From a virus, in IMG/VR virus record IMGVR_UViG_3300044997_001199, positions 151,331 through 215,330 of that record: a stretch of 64,000 bases of DNA. The stretch is one strand, 5' to 3'. The position numbers were made by a program, and so were the translations under genes. Shown here piece after piece: positions 15,338 through 61,626 of the stretch. How positions within the stretch are numbered: the first letter of the stretch is position 1; each line of letters begins with the position of its first letter. Below the pieces are notes generated by a model. That model saw nothing but the letters and a program-made list of their open reading frames with translations. It had not been told where the DNA came from and searched no databases.

Positions 15338-15448
15338 TTATTTTTGCCAGAGCGTCTTGAGACGATCAGTCCAGGGCCTGGCCCAGGGAGGTTGTGGCCA
15401 ATGCCATCCTGCAACGATACCAACGATCAACCAAAATAACCACGACAT
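15338..15448 (-). CDS. 36-residue membrane peptide
   Basis: A short gene starting MSWLFWLIVGIVAGWHW, which is one transmembrane helix followed by a proline- and basic-rich tail (ARPWTDRLKTLWQK). AAAAAGGAG 7 bases before the ATG is one of the stronger ribosome sites in the area and supports translation. It begins 2 bases after the end of the gene upstream. Possible roles include lysis or membrane targeting; nothing decides between them. Confidence 0.65.
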   Translation of the reverse strand: MSWLFWLIVGIVAGWHWPQPPWARPWTDRLKTLWQK

Positions 15449-15449
15449 A

Positions 15450-15794
15450 TCAATCTCCTTTTTTAGAGGCCCGCTTGGCCATGCGTGACACAATATCCCG
15501 GGCCTTGTCCACCGGCATTTTGACATCGGTGGATTCGCCGCCTTTGAATACCACGACTCCTGACGCAGGATTCAACGGTTCCAACACATTGCTGAGAGGT
15601 GGCCGAGATATCATGTCACCAAGATTCGAGGCAGTGACGTTGATACCCAGCTGCCGAGCCATGTTTATAAACGCTATCTGACTTATGTGTTTTTTGGTTG
15701 CAGTATCTTGGGCACGCCCTGCCAAAAATTCAACCAGACCCAGTAACTTGGCCGTTTCGGGATCCATGCCGAAATCGACTTCCAGTATGAGCAT
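15450..15794 (-). CDS. Conserved phage protein, unknown function
   Basis: 114 residues, helical N-terminus (DPETAKLLGLVEFLAGRAQD), then KKHISQIAFINMARQLGINV and a basic C-terminus (RMAKRASKKGD). The gene lies between a repeat-containing virion-like protein and the membrane peptide, with 2-base gaps on both sides, so the three are probably one transcript. I do not recognise the family. Confidence 0.7.
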   Translation of the reverse strand: MLILEVDFGMDPETAKLLGLVEFLAGRAQDTATKKHISQIAFINMARQLGINVTASNLGDMISRPPLSNVLEPLNPASGVVVFKGGESTDVKMPVDKARDIVSRMAKRASKKGD

Positions 15795-47277: not shown

Positions 47278-47354
47278 GCCCAGGTGATGGAATTGGTATA
47301 CGTGTCGGATTCAAAATCCGAATTTTGTGGGTTCGAGTCCCGCCCAGGGCACCA
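47278..47354 (+). tRNA. tRNA-Leu (CAA), short variable arm
   Basis: 77 bases including CCA. Anticodon stem TCGGA/TCCGA with loop TTCAAAA gives anticodon CAA. T-arm GTGGG TTCGAGT CCCGC. The acceptor stem has one A-A mismatch. The D-arm (GGTGATGGAATTGGTA) is leucine-like and the discriminator is A. The variable region has only about 5 bases (ATTTT) where leucine tRNAs normally carry a long arm. Confidence 0.85.
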
Positions 47355-47694: not shown

Positions 47695-48003
47695 ATGTTA
47701 ATTGCAATCACTATCGTTGTTGCCGCGATAATTTTTTACGTGGCATATACCAAATCCAGACACAATAAGATTAAGGATTTTCCGGAATTGATTGACCAAG
47801 TCTCGGTCGTGGCTGATGCAACCTCACAACCGGCCATGCCGGAACCTGAGGTAGAAGTTGTAGCGGAACCTGCTGCAGAGATTTTGGCTGACGTCGGGAC
47901 TCAGACTTCCACCAACAAAAGACCCGCACGTAACAAAGCAAAGGTTCAACCCGTCGATCCCGCCGCAGCCAGTCGTCGACCCCGCGCTCGTGCCAAACAG
48001 TAA
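47695..48003 (+). CDS. Membrane-anchored protein with basic tail
   Basis: 102 residues: an N-terminal membrane helix (MLIAITIVVAAIIFYVAYTK), an acidic and proline-rich middle, and a basic tail ending SRRPRARAKQ. ACAGGAG precedes the ATG. The 3' end lies in the 65-base direct repeat, so its last 11 codons and stop also appear at 49207-49243. Confidence 0.65.
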   Translation: MLIAITIVVAAIIFYVAYTKSRHNKIKDFPELIDQVSVVADATSQPAMPEPEVEVVAEPAAEILADVGTQTSTNKRPARNKAKVQPVDPAAASRRPRARAKQ

Positions 48004-48031
48004 TCTGCCTGTAGCTCAGCCGGAAGAGCAA
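47967..48031 (+). repeat. 65-base direct repeat, left copy
   Basis: Identical to 49207-49271, exactly 1,240 bases away. It spans the end of the membrane-anchored protein gene and the 5' half of the tRNA-Arg gene. Confidence 0.97.
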
Positions 48032-48080
48032 CGGCCTTCTAAGCCGTCGGCCGGGGGTTCGAATCCCTCCAGGCAGGCCA
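48005..48080 (+). tRNA. tRNA-Arg (TCT)
   Basis: 76 bases with encoded CCA. Acceptor CTGCCTG/CAGGCAG, D-stem GCTC/GAGC, anticodon stem ACGGC/GCCGT with loop CTTCTAA (anticodon TCT), T-arm GGGGG TTCGAAT CCCTC. It reads AGA codons. A complete and well-paired tRNA. Confidence 0.93.
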
Positions 48081-48085
48081 TCGAT

Positions 48086-48119
48086 GCGCTTGTAGCTTAA
48101 GGGTTAAAGTAGCGGGCTC
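48086..48119 (+). pseudogene. 5' half of a tRNA gene
   Basis: GCGCTTGTAGCTTAAGGGTT is a tRNA acceptor and D-arm start, followed by AAAGTAGCGGGCTC up to the anticodon. There it breaks into AT-rich sequence with no 3' half. It marks the left junction of the AT-rich island. Confidence 0.7.
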
Positions 48120-48225
48120 TTTTATTTTATTTTTATAATTATTAAAAAGTGACAGATATGCCCACCCTAAAAGTTTATAATAATTTGTAAAGAAATATTA
48201 CTATACACGTAAAAATAATTTTTAT

Positions 48226-48297
48226 GAGCCTATAGCTCAACAGTAAAGCGTGCCACTCATAATGGCTTGAGTCTTAGTTCGATTCCGGGTGGGCTCA
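48226..48297 (+). tRNA. tRNA with CAT anticodon, in the AT-rich island
   Basis: Acceptor GAGCCTA/TGGGCTC, D-arm TAGCTCAACAGTAAAGC, anticodon loop CTCATAA on a GCCA/TGGC stem. The T-arm (CTTAG TTCGATT CCGGG) pairs poorly. CCA is not encoded. Base composition is lower in GC than the other CAT tRNA. Confidence 0.7.
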
Positions 48298-48337
48298 TAA
48301 AAATTACTTTCTTCAGTTAGTTGTTATAACATTGAAT

Positions 48338-48420
48338 GGGAGTGTGGTGAAATTGGTAAACACATCTGATTTAAGATCAGACGCCGCGGCTTGAGAGTTC
48401 GAATCTCTCCACTCCTACCA
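48338..48420 (+). tRNA. tRNA-Leu (TAA), normal long variable arm
   Basis: 83 bases with CCA. Acceptor GGGAGTG/CACTCCT, anticodon stem TCTGA/TCAGA with loop TTTAAGA, a variable arm of ordinary class II type (GCCGCGGC), T-arm GAGAG TTCGAAT CTCTC. It reads UUA. It lies in the AT-rich island. Confidence 0.92.
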
Positions 48421-48463
48421 AAATATATACAAGTAATATTGGAGTAACACATTAACTCAGGCA

Positions 48464-48502
48464 TGCTTGAATTTAATATTCAAGAAATTAAAGATTTTTA
48501 GT
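48464..48502 (+). pseudogene. Start of a second RNase H-like gene, truncated
   Basis: Reads MLEFNIQEIKDF then stop. It matches the start of the intact gene at 49358 (MLKLNIEEVKAF). As in the intact locus, it follows a tRNA with TAA anticodon, and the upstream bases GGAGTAA also match. It is a remnant of a related but AT-rich version of the locus. Confidence 0.6.
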
Positions 48503-48983
48503 TATCTGGGCTACACCCTGCAGATACGAAGCTTAATTCATGTATCATTCTGTGGGGTATTCCTTTGCCTCTTCTCATTAACCATTGATTTTGTACGCTG
48601 TATGCCACAAACTCTGTTCTAGCATTTTCTATACAAGTACCTTTGTTACCAGGAACTATAGTTCCGTCTAAGAATTGCAGATGGTGGACGAATTCATGCA
48701 CAAAGTAACTTGCATTAAAATCATCTTGCGCATCCCACGTGTCTCTTAAAAATATTTTACCGTTAGAGTAAAGACCTATAACATGAAAATCAGGCGGGCA
48801 ATTACCCCCGCAAACCTGAATGTTAATTTCTTTACCATTAATAAAAACTATTTCGGGCAGTTTATACTCTAAATTAGGAGAGTATATTTCTCTTGCTTCT
48901 TTTGCCAGAACCTCTAAATCATCTATGATATCAGCAAAAGCAGATTGAGATGCTATTAAAAAAAGTAAGAATAGTTTTTTCAT
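48498..48983 (-). CDS. Secreted zinc metallopeptidase-like protein
   Basis: 161 residues from ATG 48983. A signal peptide is clear (MKKLFLLFLIASQSAFA, cleavage before DIID). YFVHEFVHHLQFLDG holds an HExxH zinc site. Cys pairs (VCGGNCPP; GTCIEN; AGCSP) suggest disulfides, so it probably acts in the periplasm or outside. It is AT-rich and on the opposite strand to its neighbours, pointing to transfer. Could aid lysis or act on envelope proteins; inferred. Confidence 0.8.
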   Translation of the reverse strand: MKKLFLLFLIASQSAFADIIDDLEVLAKEAREIYSPNLEYKLPEIVFINGKEINIQVCGGNCPPDFHVIGLYSNGKIFLRDTWDAQDDFNASYFVHEFVHHLQFLDGTIVPGNKGTCIENARTEFVAYSVQNQWLMRRGKGIPHRMIHELSFVSAGCSPDN

Positions 48984-49109
48984 TTGATTTATTTTTTGAT
49001 AGATAATATCAGGTATTAAATGATACAAGTAGGCAAATTAATATGATGCAAAAATATATAGCAGAACTTGATGAGATAGCAAACATAAAACGATAAATGG
49101 ACTAGCAAA

Positions 49110-49243
49110 TTGAAAGATAGGACCATGATTACATTAAACAGTTTGTTGCGTTAACCGAAGAACAGAACGCTGGTGTCATCGCCGCGTCCGAGAACAAATC
49201 AGCCAAAGCCAGTCGTCGACCCCGCGCTCGTGCCAAACAGTAA
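49110..49243 (+). pseudogene. 3' fragment of a gene ending like the membrane-anchored protein
   Basis: After a stop at about 49107-49109 the frame reads DHDYIKQFVALTEEQNAGVI, then AASENKSAKASRRPRARAKQ and stop, with no start codon. The last 11 codons are shared with 47695-48003 through the 65-base repeat. It marks the right junction of the island. Confidence 0.55.
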
Positions 49244-49271
49244 TCTGCCTGTAGCTCAGCCGGAAGAGCAA
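49207..49271 (+). repeat. 65-base direct repeat, right copy
   Basis: Same as 47967-48031. It carries the end of a coding sequence and the 5' half of tRNA-Arg, here fused to a different tRNA 3' half. Confidence 0.97.
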
Positions 49272-49320
49272 TGGACTTAAAATCCATCCAGTACGGGCTC
49301 GAATCCCGCCACTCGCACCA
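49245..49320 (+). tRNA. Chimeric tRNA, TAA anticodon
   Basis: The 5' half (to about 49271) is that of tRNA-Arg (TCT). The 3' half has anticodon stem ATGGA/TCCAT, loop CTTAAAA (anticodon TAA), short variable loop CCAGT, and ends CACTCGCACCA. The acceptor ends CTGCCTG and CACTCGC do not pair well (3 of 7 mismatched), so it is probably not functional. Confidence 0.65.
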
Positions 49321-49357: not shown

Positions 49358-49831
49358 ATGCTTAAACTTAATATTGAAGAAGTTAAAGCATTTATAGATT
49401 CACAAAGCAAAGAAACAAGAATTTATATCGGGTGCGACTCTGAACGCTTTAGACACAATAACGTATGGTGGGCCGAGTATACTGTGGCAGTGGTGATCCA
49501 TATGGATGGGCGTCACGGCTGTAGGATTTTTGGCGAAGTTACCCGAGAAAGAGACTATGACCAACGCAGAGATCGACCCAGCATGCGTCTCATGAACGAA
49601 GTTCACAAGGCTAGCGAGATGTTTCAGCGTCTGGCGCTGGTGCTAGCGGATCGTCCAGTGGAAGTACATCTTGACATCAATCCCAACGAGATCCACGGAT
49701 CTAACTGTATAATCCAGCAGGCCATTGGCTACATACGAGGTACATGCAATGTGATTCCCATGATCAAACCTCGGGCATTTGCTGCCAGCTATGCGGCAGA
49801 TCGGCTCAAATCTCTACGTTTATCAGCTTGA
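49358..49831 (+). CDS. RNase H-like protein (DUF458/YkuK type)
   Basis: 157 residues from ATG 49358; the upstream open frame lies in tRNA sequence. RIYIGCDSERF carries the first acidic residue of an RNase H-like fold, EYTVAVVIHMDGRHG the next strand, and VEVHLDINPNE a later acidic pair. This fits the DUF458 group of predicted nucleases. It may remove RNA primers or process RNA; inferred. Confidence 0.75.
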   Translation: MLKLNIEEVKAFIDSQSKETRIYIGCDSERFRHNNVWWAEYTVAVVIHMDGRHGCRIFGEVTRERDYDQRRDRPSMRLMNEVHKASEMFQRLALVLADRPVEVHLDINPNEIHGSNCIIQQAIGYIRGTCNVIPMIKPRAFAASYAADRLKSLRLSA

Positions 49832-59771: not shown

Positions 59772-59874
59772 CTCAAATTTTGGATTTACTCCACTAAAAG
59801 AAGTTTGGTTAGGAGATTGTTATCCTGAATCTTTTTACAACCATCTGCCAAACAAATCTGTTAGTGCATGCTGA
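59764..59874 (+). pseudogene. N-terminal fragment of an amidinotransferase-like gene
   Basis: 36 residues: MINSNFGFTPLKEVWLGDCY, then PESFYNHLPNKSVSAC and stop. The pattern resembles the start of phage amidinotransferase-like proteins (..PLKEVWLGDCYP.. is from memory). The remaining 300 or so residues are missing, and the sequence continues into a different coding frame. Confidence 0.55.
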
Positions 59875-60535
59875 CCCCGGTGCACGTAGTGGATTCATTG
59901 CCGCATGGTTAACCAATCAGTTGACTGATTCAACAGTTGATGTTAGTAAGAAGTTGAATCCAATCTTTTGTAAAATACACAAACTGGATGATGTTAATAT
60001 TGTTAAAAACTTTTTAGGTACAAAAATAAGAATTCGTCCCGAGATAGAATCCATTGATCTACATTCGCTTTTATTTTTAAGAAAAAATGTTTACTCACAA
60101 ATTCCAAATTTTACTCGCGACGAGTATTCGCTAGAAACTTTTACAAAAATAGCATGCTTTGCTCGAGAGATATCTGAATGGGACCAGGTTCTGGACAACA
60201 ATTTATATGATTTTGTATTAAACTTTAGTGATACGTTTAATAACGACCTTATGATTGAATTATATAAAAAAGTTATAGGCATTGACCCATCTAGTTCTAT
60301 GATTGTTAATTTGATTGAAACTAACAAAATAAACAACATATCTATAAACCACAATCATGCTTGTTCAATTTTAAAATTATGTCTTTCTCAAGAAAACAAA
60401 TTAAATCTTAAAGAACAAAATAGATTCTGGAGCATAGTAGATGTATATGCTAGAACATCAGTTGATAAACTTTATGAAACAGTTTATGATTCTATCAAGC
60501 TAGAAAATTACGATCCATTGGCATGCAAGGTTTAA
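59864..60535 (+). CDS. AT-rich phage protein, possibly missing its true start
   Basis: 223 residues from GTG 59864. The beginning HADPGARSGFIAAWLTNQLT looks internal to a strand-loop-helix fold. The frame is open upstream (..FTTICQTNLLVHADPG..) without ATG, so the start is uncertain. The rest is rich in Asn, Ile and Lys and visibly AT-rich, unlike most of the window. Probably acquired from an AT-rich relative. Function unknown. Confidence 0.6.
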   Translation: MHADPGARSGFIAAWLTNQLTDSTVDVSKKLNPIFCKIHKLDDVNIVKNFLGTKIRIRPEIESIDLHSLLFLRKNVYSQIPNFTRDEYSLETFTKIACFAREISEWDQVLDNNLYDFVLNFSDTFNNDLMIELYKKVIGIDPSSSMIVNLIETNKINNISINHNHACSILKLCLSQENKLNLKEQNRFWSIVDVYARTSVDKLYETVYDSIKLENYDPLACKV

Positions 60536-61626
60536 CGATCCCATTTACCGGTCTTCGACGACAATATAATAGCCTTCGTCAGGAGATATTAGATGCCACC
60601 GACGAAGTTCTTCGTAGTGGCATACTCATGAATGGCAATAACACTGCCGAGTTTGAGCATTGGCTGAAAAAGAAAAACAATGTAAGTTATGCTGTGACCT
60701 GTCACAGTGGAACCGTGGCTTTAGAAATTATTGCAAGATATCATTACCAACAACAATTACCAAAACCACCAACTGTATTAATTCCCAGTATGACTTATGT
60801 GGCCACCGCCAATGCATTTGCCAATGCAGGTTGGGATATTCAATTTATTGATGTTGATTCTTATGGCATCCTTGATTACAAACAAATTCCCGAATTTCTC
60901 ATTTACCAAGCCGTGGTAATTATCGGGATGTATGGTGCCAGTGTTACACATTTTGGTAATACAAAATTTTGGACCCAGCGAGAAAAACAAGGAACCATTG
61001 TTATTGAAGATGCCGCACAACATTGGTTGGCTGCTGATTGTCAGAGAATTGGAAATGCAGCAGCCATTAGTTTTGATCCAATGAAGAATTTAGCCTGTTA
61101 CGGGAATGGCGGCGCGGTTTTAACCAACGATCGAAATCTCTACGAATTTGCTGTTAGTTGGAGAGATAACGGAAAGTTGTCACAGCACTTGTATAACGGA
61201 TCAAATGTCAGAATGAGTGAGTTAGATTGTGCACACATGTTGGTCAAAACAAATCATGTCAGCAAATGGCAATCTCGAAGAGAAAATATTGCAAATTTTT
61301 GGATGGAATCTCTTAAAGATTTCCCTGTTCGTTGTCTAACTGACAGGAGTAATGCTCATGATCATGCTTACCACAAGTTTGTTATTGACATTGATCAACG
61401 CGATCAAATCAAAAAAGAACTTGCTAATCGTAAAATTGAAACTCGGGTACATTATGAACGACCTTTACACGAACTTGATGGTGTGTTTAGACAATACCCC
61501 GGTCCGGGGTTGTTAGCTACATCTAGCTCGCTGAGTCGCAGAGTACTGAGTTTGCCGATCTATCCCGAACTCACTGATCTTGAAGTGGAATATATCATTG
61601 ATCGGGTACGAGATTGCGCTTCATGA
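60523..61626 (+). CDS. DegT/DnrJ/EryC1-type sugar aminotransferase
   Basis: 367 residues. PLP enzyme features: CHSGTVALEIIARY, then VIEDAAQHW, and AISFDPMKNLACYGNGGAV with the PLP lysine (MKN). The C-terminal part HYERPLHELDGVFRQYPG is normal for the family. It aminates keto-sugar nucleotides, so with the epimerase it could make an amino-sugar for surface glycans. The start overlaps the gene before it by 13 bases. Confidence 0.9.
   Translation: MQGLTIPFTGLRRQYNSLRQEILDATDEVLRSGILMNGNNTAEFEHWLKKKNNVSYAVTCHSGTVALEIIARYHYQQQLPKPPTVLIPSMTYVATANAFANAGWDIQFIDVDSYGILDYKQIPEFLIYQAVVIIGMYGASVTHFGNTKFWTQREKQGTIVIEDAAQHWLAADCQRIGNAAAISFDPMKNLACYGNGGAVLTNDRNLYEFAVSWRDNGKLSQHLYNGSNVRMSELDCAHMLVKTNHVSKWQSRRENIANFWMESLKDFPVRCLTDRSNAHDHAYHKFVIDIDQRDQIKKELANRKIETRVHYERPLHELDGVFRQYPGPGLLATSSSLSRRVLSLPIYPELTDLEVEYIIDRVRDCAS

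Follow-up and report, generated by a model that had tools for sequence, protein, structure and literature searches.

In phage T6, SegB makes breaks that lead to the uvsX-dependent amplification of tRNA segments (PMC13096335), and the tRNA region of T6/T4 carries direct repeats that are unstable by homologous recombination (PMC13096335). In HEG-bounded exchange, foreign segments without discrete ends pass between phages (PMC10448857). Integrase-type islands are located at tRNA genes and have direct repeats. Furthermore, HNH homing-endonuclease genes are found beside tRNA genes in Escherichia phage ACG-C40 and in the related loci L005, L008, L019 and L082, where foreign AT-rich DNA cuts a tRNA gene and, in the inserts of the relatives, a complete tRNA gene of the same isoacceptor comes next. 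The locus described here resembles these systems in its direct repeats at tRNA genes, in its foreign AT-rich DNA that lacks discrete ends and in a broken tRNA gene for which a complete isoacceptor is present, but it is neither an integrase island, an intact endonuclease cassette nor a SegB-type amplification. It lies in the last 64 kb (hereafter the window, the whole stretch of DNA analysed) of a 215,330-base metagenomic IMG/VR phage contig; coordinates are those of the window, and features are on its plus strand unless otherwise stated. With moderate confidence, we read the region as a composite scar that recombination between co-infecting phages has left in a tRNA array.

Sequence comparison revealed an exact 65-base repeat at 47967-48031 and 49207-49271, with a spacing of 1240 bases, as had been proposed in a previous sequence-only reading of this DNA. 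No further copies exist in the whole 215-kb contig. The other direct repeats in the 40-56 kb region are short (just 20-31 nt) and imperfect (71-86% identity), so the exact 65-base repeat is far beyond chance. The left copy is composed of the last 37 nt of the upstream gene, a small membrane-protein-like ORF of 102 aa (47695-48003) whose 3′ end is inside the repeat, and the 5′ part of a tRNA-Arg gene. The right copy, an exact match to the left one, contains the end of a truncated reading frame (49119-49243) that spans 40 aa past its last in-frame TAG. Searches for relatives of the upstream genes, including the 102-aa ORF, and of the truncated frame found none. In contrast to SegB amplification, which yields at least two near-identical repeat units, only these 65 bases are duplicated here; the remainder differs, and the intervening unit is foreign and not a copied tRNA-endonuclease unit.

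The GC content of the contig is about 0.49. Over 60-base windows, values of 0.22-0.43 were observed from 48080 to about 49130, with 0.5-0.68 leftward and 0.57 rightward, and the right AT-to-GC change, near 49,130, is within the truncated frame that ends in the repeat. The earlier claim that the left edge of the island cuts a tRNA near its anticodon was correct regarding the cut tRNA, whereas the AT-rich block itself starts about 55 bases to the right of the repeat, past an intact tRNA-Arg.

This intact tRNA-Arg(TCT), detected by tRNA search at 48005-48080, is 91% identical to the tRNA-Arg of L033. It is followed by a tRNA 5′ half (48086-48119) that enters AT-rich sequence at about tRNA position 33-34. 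The best intact match of this half is the tRNA(CAT) of L021 (82%), with Lys(CTT) as an alternative identity, and its 3′ half was sought and not found. An AT-rich spacer with a 10-codon ORF (48120-48224) separates it from a tRNA-Met/Ile(CAT) at 48225-48298 (best match L008 and L063, 81%), whose T stem is weak and which is possibly decayed. A complete tRNA-Leu(TAA) with a long variable arm comes next at 48338-48420 (86% to L008 and L019, 83% to Aeromonas phages), and this imported gene is the sole complete Leu(TAA) found in the contig. A long variable arm is normal for bacterial tRNA-Leu. In the arrays of related phages, 38 of the 92 tRNA-Leu genes (31 distinct sequences) are 78 nt or shorter and do not have it, and the tRNA-Leu at 47278-47354 of the window was noted among such short genes; the long arm is retained by all 64 tRNA-Ser and 23 tRNA-Tyr genes of the same arrays.

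At the right edge, the proposed fusion of a tRNA-Arg 5′ part with the 3′ part of another tRNA was confirmed by Infernal and by alignment. In the resulting chimeric tRNA pseudogene (49245-49320), Arg positions 1-26 are continued by the 3′ part of a tRNA of the Leu(TAA) type (49272-49320), and Infernal aligns only the middle of the pseudogene (model positions 6-65 of 71). It is not predicted to fold into a cloverleaf and, by inspection, its acceptor halves CTGCCTG and CACTCGC form 4 of 7 pairs, one of them G-U, which argues that the chimera is almost certainly dead. The resident tRNA-Leu(TAA) is broken, with its 5′ part gone. The junction is located directly after CAA, present in the tRNA-Arg (GAGCAAcgg) and also in the Leu(TAA) of L011, which has the same acceptor end (GACACAAgag); a short shared sequence could therefore have guided the join.

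Downstream of the imported tRNA-Leu, sequence comparison identified the start of an RNase H-like (PF04308) gene at 48464-48502, which runs from ATG 48464 over 12 codons (MLEFNIQEIKDF) to a TAG stop. The intact RNase H-like gene at 49358-49831 (PF04308 E 3e-19, residues 6-150; phrog_11311), whose profile match spans the domain, reads MLKLNIEEVKAF, and the truncated start does mirror this intact locus, as suggested before; tRNA-CAT, tRNA-Leu and the truncated start are all located between the repeats, again in agreement with that suggestion. Searches with the RNase H-like protein gave 62 relatives among viral contigs and 75 records among cultured phages. At most of the 62 IMG/VR loci, tRNA genes lie no more than 3 kb away, and the gene is also placed among tRNA genes in Stenotrophomonas phage DLP_6 and Xanthomonas phage X1. 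It is retained in the tRNA arrays of many unrelated-looking large phages (window 49358-49831; L002-L063).

The stop codon of a gene on the opposite, minus strand (48498-48983) touches this 12-codon start. The gene encodes, from ATG 48983, a protein of 162 aa with a DUF6647 profile match restricted to residues 76-160 (E 7e-6; 26.3 bits, above the curated cut-off of 24.1), a HEFVHH motif and a signal-peptide-like start. It was previously described as a secreted peptidase; both its peptidase activity and its secretion are putative. A search of cultured phages gave no match, and the comparison with bacterial genomes returned nothing beyond a 28-residue match; the one phage relative found was L064.

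The match to L064 (IMG/VR contig 3300044957_000909, GC 0.37) covers 48679-49072 of the window, with 95.7% identity over 394 bases ending at 49072, and lies at the end of that contig, which also carries a family-B DNA polymerase, an Hsp20-like gene and a cytidylate deaminase. Neither a tRNA nor an RNase H-like gene was found in the 6.3 kb of L064 examined; since its sequence stops inside the DUF6647 gene, the arrangement on the tRNA side cannot be read from it. The phages with the nearest matches to the island tRNAs have GC contents of 0.37-0.39 and an RNase H-like gene within the tRNA array. These matches show that the AT-rich block is foreign phage DNA joined at tRNA genes, and to this extent the proposed uptake from a related AT-rich phage was supported. 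The idea of a single segment from one phage was not: the parts of the block have different nearest matches, and L064 has neither tRNA nor RNase H-like gene in the stretch examined, so the block is a mosaic of at least two phage sources. It has to be noted that tRNA similarities of 81-86% are weak evidence for the source and say little on the exact donor.

L064 also bears on a different interpretation of the truncated frame, in which the three in-frame stops ahead of it are read as Gln (recoding) to give a plausible coiled coil. This candidate was dropped because the sequence up to 49072 corresponds in L064 to the leader of the DUF6647 gene, where the frame is probably noncoding. A second AT-rich stretch was observed at 59864-61623 of the window (GC 0.34 at 60-61 kb), with a DegT/DnrJ aminotransferase gene beside a nucleotide-sugar epimerase, and might represent another acquisition.

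The direct repeats beside tRNA genes, together with the foreign base composition, speak for a mobile island that inserts into such genes and leaves via its flanking repeats, and the earlier reading held that the repeats would permit excision. We regard such an origin as highly improbable. The recombinase search of the 215-kb contig, which covered tyrosine integrases (PF00589 profile), found none, and the genome carrying the locus is that of a lytic-type phage. The repeat combines a gene end with a tRNA 5′ part and, unlike att sites, does not rebuild a tRNA: tRNA-Arg is intact on the left, and the chimera stands on the right. Recombination between the repeats would strip tRNA-Arg of its 3′ part and remove the one complete tRNA-Leu(TAA), so that only the chimera remained. 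Given the lack of a tyrosine integrase match and this damage to the tRNA set, excision as a mobile element is unsupported, and loss between the repeats would be a damaging passive deletion.

Related loci contain tRNA genes cut in a comparable manner. L009, L063, L017 and L018 have a whole tRNA-Leu(TAA) that in L008 and L019 breaks off after GGTATACA, where an HNH gene and a complete, different tRNA-Leu(TAA) follow; the L008 and L019 inserts are almost identical, and their flanks are different. L082 harbors a close copy of this insert. Adjoining that copy, a tRNA(CAT) breaks off at its anticodon and is followed by a second ORF and then by a complete tRNA(CAT). The clearest case is L005, with a 5′ piece GCCCGAG..., an HNH gene, a complete tRNA-Leu(TAA) and the 3′ piece of the first tRNA (...CTCGGGCACCA), so that the acceptor halves GCCCGAG and CTCGGGC still flank the HNH gene and the complete tRNA. 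In L005 (5208-5819), L008 (7075-7850), L019 and L082 (2440-3207 and 3260-3931), an HNH or other ORF has the 5′ piece of a cut tRNA on one side and a complete tRNA for that isoacceptor on the other. The ends of 7 of the 10 HNH ORFs were within 10 nt of a tRNA gene or inside it, vs 58 of the 309 other array ORFs (Fisher p 0.0008, for loci that are not fully independent), and ACG-C40 has a related HNH gene (annotation: similar to T5 TflIV) whose end is 6 nt upstream of tRNA-Leu.

Some additional features were observed in these relatives. The HNH reading frame extends into the tRNA-Leu gene in L008 and L082, and T4-late-promoter-like sequences (TATAAATA or GATAAATA) precede the ORF in the inserts of L005, L008, L019 and L082. 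A chimera-like tRNA with an Ile/His-like 5′ part, a Ser-like 3′ part and unmatched acceptor ends is located at 3997-4084 of L014. The anticodon loop of a tRNA in L083 (about 2050-2190) seems to contain ~60 extra nt (TTTGGG, then AAAAAATAG...), which may be an intron or the decayed remains of an insert.

With a Leu(TAA) 3′ part left in the chimera and a complete Leu(TAA) at 48338-48420, the locus works like the tRNA-replacing inserts seen in its relatives insofar as it combines a broken tRNA with an imported complete tRNA for the same isoacceptor. It differs from the HNH inserts in having no endonuclease gene and in carrying the 65-base repeat, a second, chimeric tRNA and the DUF6647 gene, and from the described HEG-bounded exchange (PMC10448857) in that no HEG is found at its boundaries. 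The left part could itself go back to a homing-endonuclease cassette that inserted into the anticodon loop of a tRNA(CAT), brought along its own complete tRNA(CAT) and later lost the endonuclease. The order of elements is that of L082, with a tRNA(CAT) 5′ half cut at U33, an AT-rich leader and a complete tRNA(CAT), and a tRNA(CAT) is the best match of the half in the window. We nevertheless consider this origin rather improbable: no endonuclease gene stands between the tRNA pieces, a profile of five HNH proteins detected neither gene nor remnant in the island, its spacer included, and the missing 3′ half of the cut tRNA also argues against it. Moreover, the late-promoter-like TATAATTA, one mismatch off TATAAATA, is expected by chance in AT-rich sequence. 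A single GIY-YIG match exists in the contig, at the distant contig positions 9272-9517; this and a weak HNH match at contig 15388-15504 were the only endonuclease hits found, both before the window.

A different kind of explanation is that the assembly fused reads from at least two strains or phages via the 65-base repeat and tRNA similarity. The contig is metagenomic, the same 65 bases are met by two flanks of unknown origin, and exact IMG/VR searches with the repeat core, the spacer downstream of tRNA-Leu and the tRNA half retrieved no other contig, although near-identical records may escape such a search. We judge this explanation unlikely, since four differing flanks round one looped repeat dictate the linear order, provided that all four joins are real, and since 1.2 kb of AT-rich DNA within a 215-kb contig of different composition would need at least two independent false joins at low similarity. 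Broken tRNAs of the same kind are, in addition, present in many independent contigs of relatives.

Recombination between co-infecting phages is the reading that we favor for the exact repeat with its chimeric tRNA, the drop in GC, the identity to L064 and the single complete Leu(TAA). It is also in line with the similarity of the island tRNAs to those of AT-rich, RNase H-carrying phages, with the place of the RNase H-like gene in the tRNA arrays of most relatives, with the tRNA genes cut and replaced likewise in L008/L019, L082 (twice) and L005, with the position of HNH ends at tRNA genes, and with the SegB precedent in T6 (PMC13096335). At least two phage sources provided the AT-rich DNA, one the tRNA(CAT)-tRNA-Leu-RNase H-like start part and another the DUF6647 gene, and this DNA was joined at tRNA genes into a phage of 49% GC. 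One resident tRNA was cut in its anticodon loop, and the 5′ part of the resident tRNA-Leu(TAA) was lost. While the mosaic and the broken tRNAs are shown by the sequence, we infer the order of events and that breaks or template switches in tRNA genes during mixed infection, the breaks perhaps made by homing endonucleases as the relatives suggest, started the process. In the course of repair or of a template switch at a later time, the 65 bases comprising the gene end and the tRNA-Arg 5′ part may have been copied again and joined to the Leu 3′ part via CAA; such a switch best accounts for the second copy, as its by-product. The complete tRNA-Leu(TAA) that was imported would then replace the broken resident gene, so that the phage retains this tRNA. 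Several observations count against this sequence of events: the island has neither an endonuclease gene nor a remnant of one, the junctions were found in no other contig, no parent is known for the right side of the join that links the DUF6647 part to the truncated frame, the tRNA half at 48086 is not firmly assignable to CAT or CTT, and the tRNA similarities are weak as pointers to the source.

We tentatively propose, as a speculative extension of these data, that phage tRNA arrays may be battlegrounds of tRNA-replacing cassettes, with the window representing a late stage in which the endonuclease is gone and the imported tRNA-Leu is needed. If this were true, tRNA genes would be cut by endonucleases within or close to the anticodon arm, and an intact tRNA of that type would arrive with the endonuclease as a substitute. 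Altogether, the locus and its relatives suggest, in a form that the HNH genes between tRNA halves of the relatives make directly testable, that part of the turnover in the large, fast-changing tRNA sets of phages comes from recombination that breaks a gene while importing a substitute, so that the tRNA content of a phage can look stable despite gene swaps.
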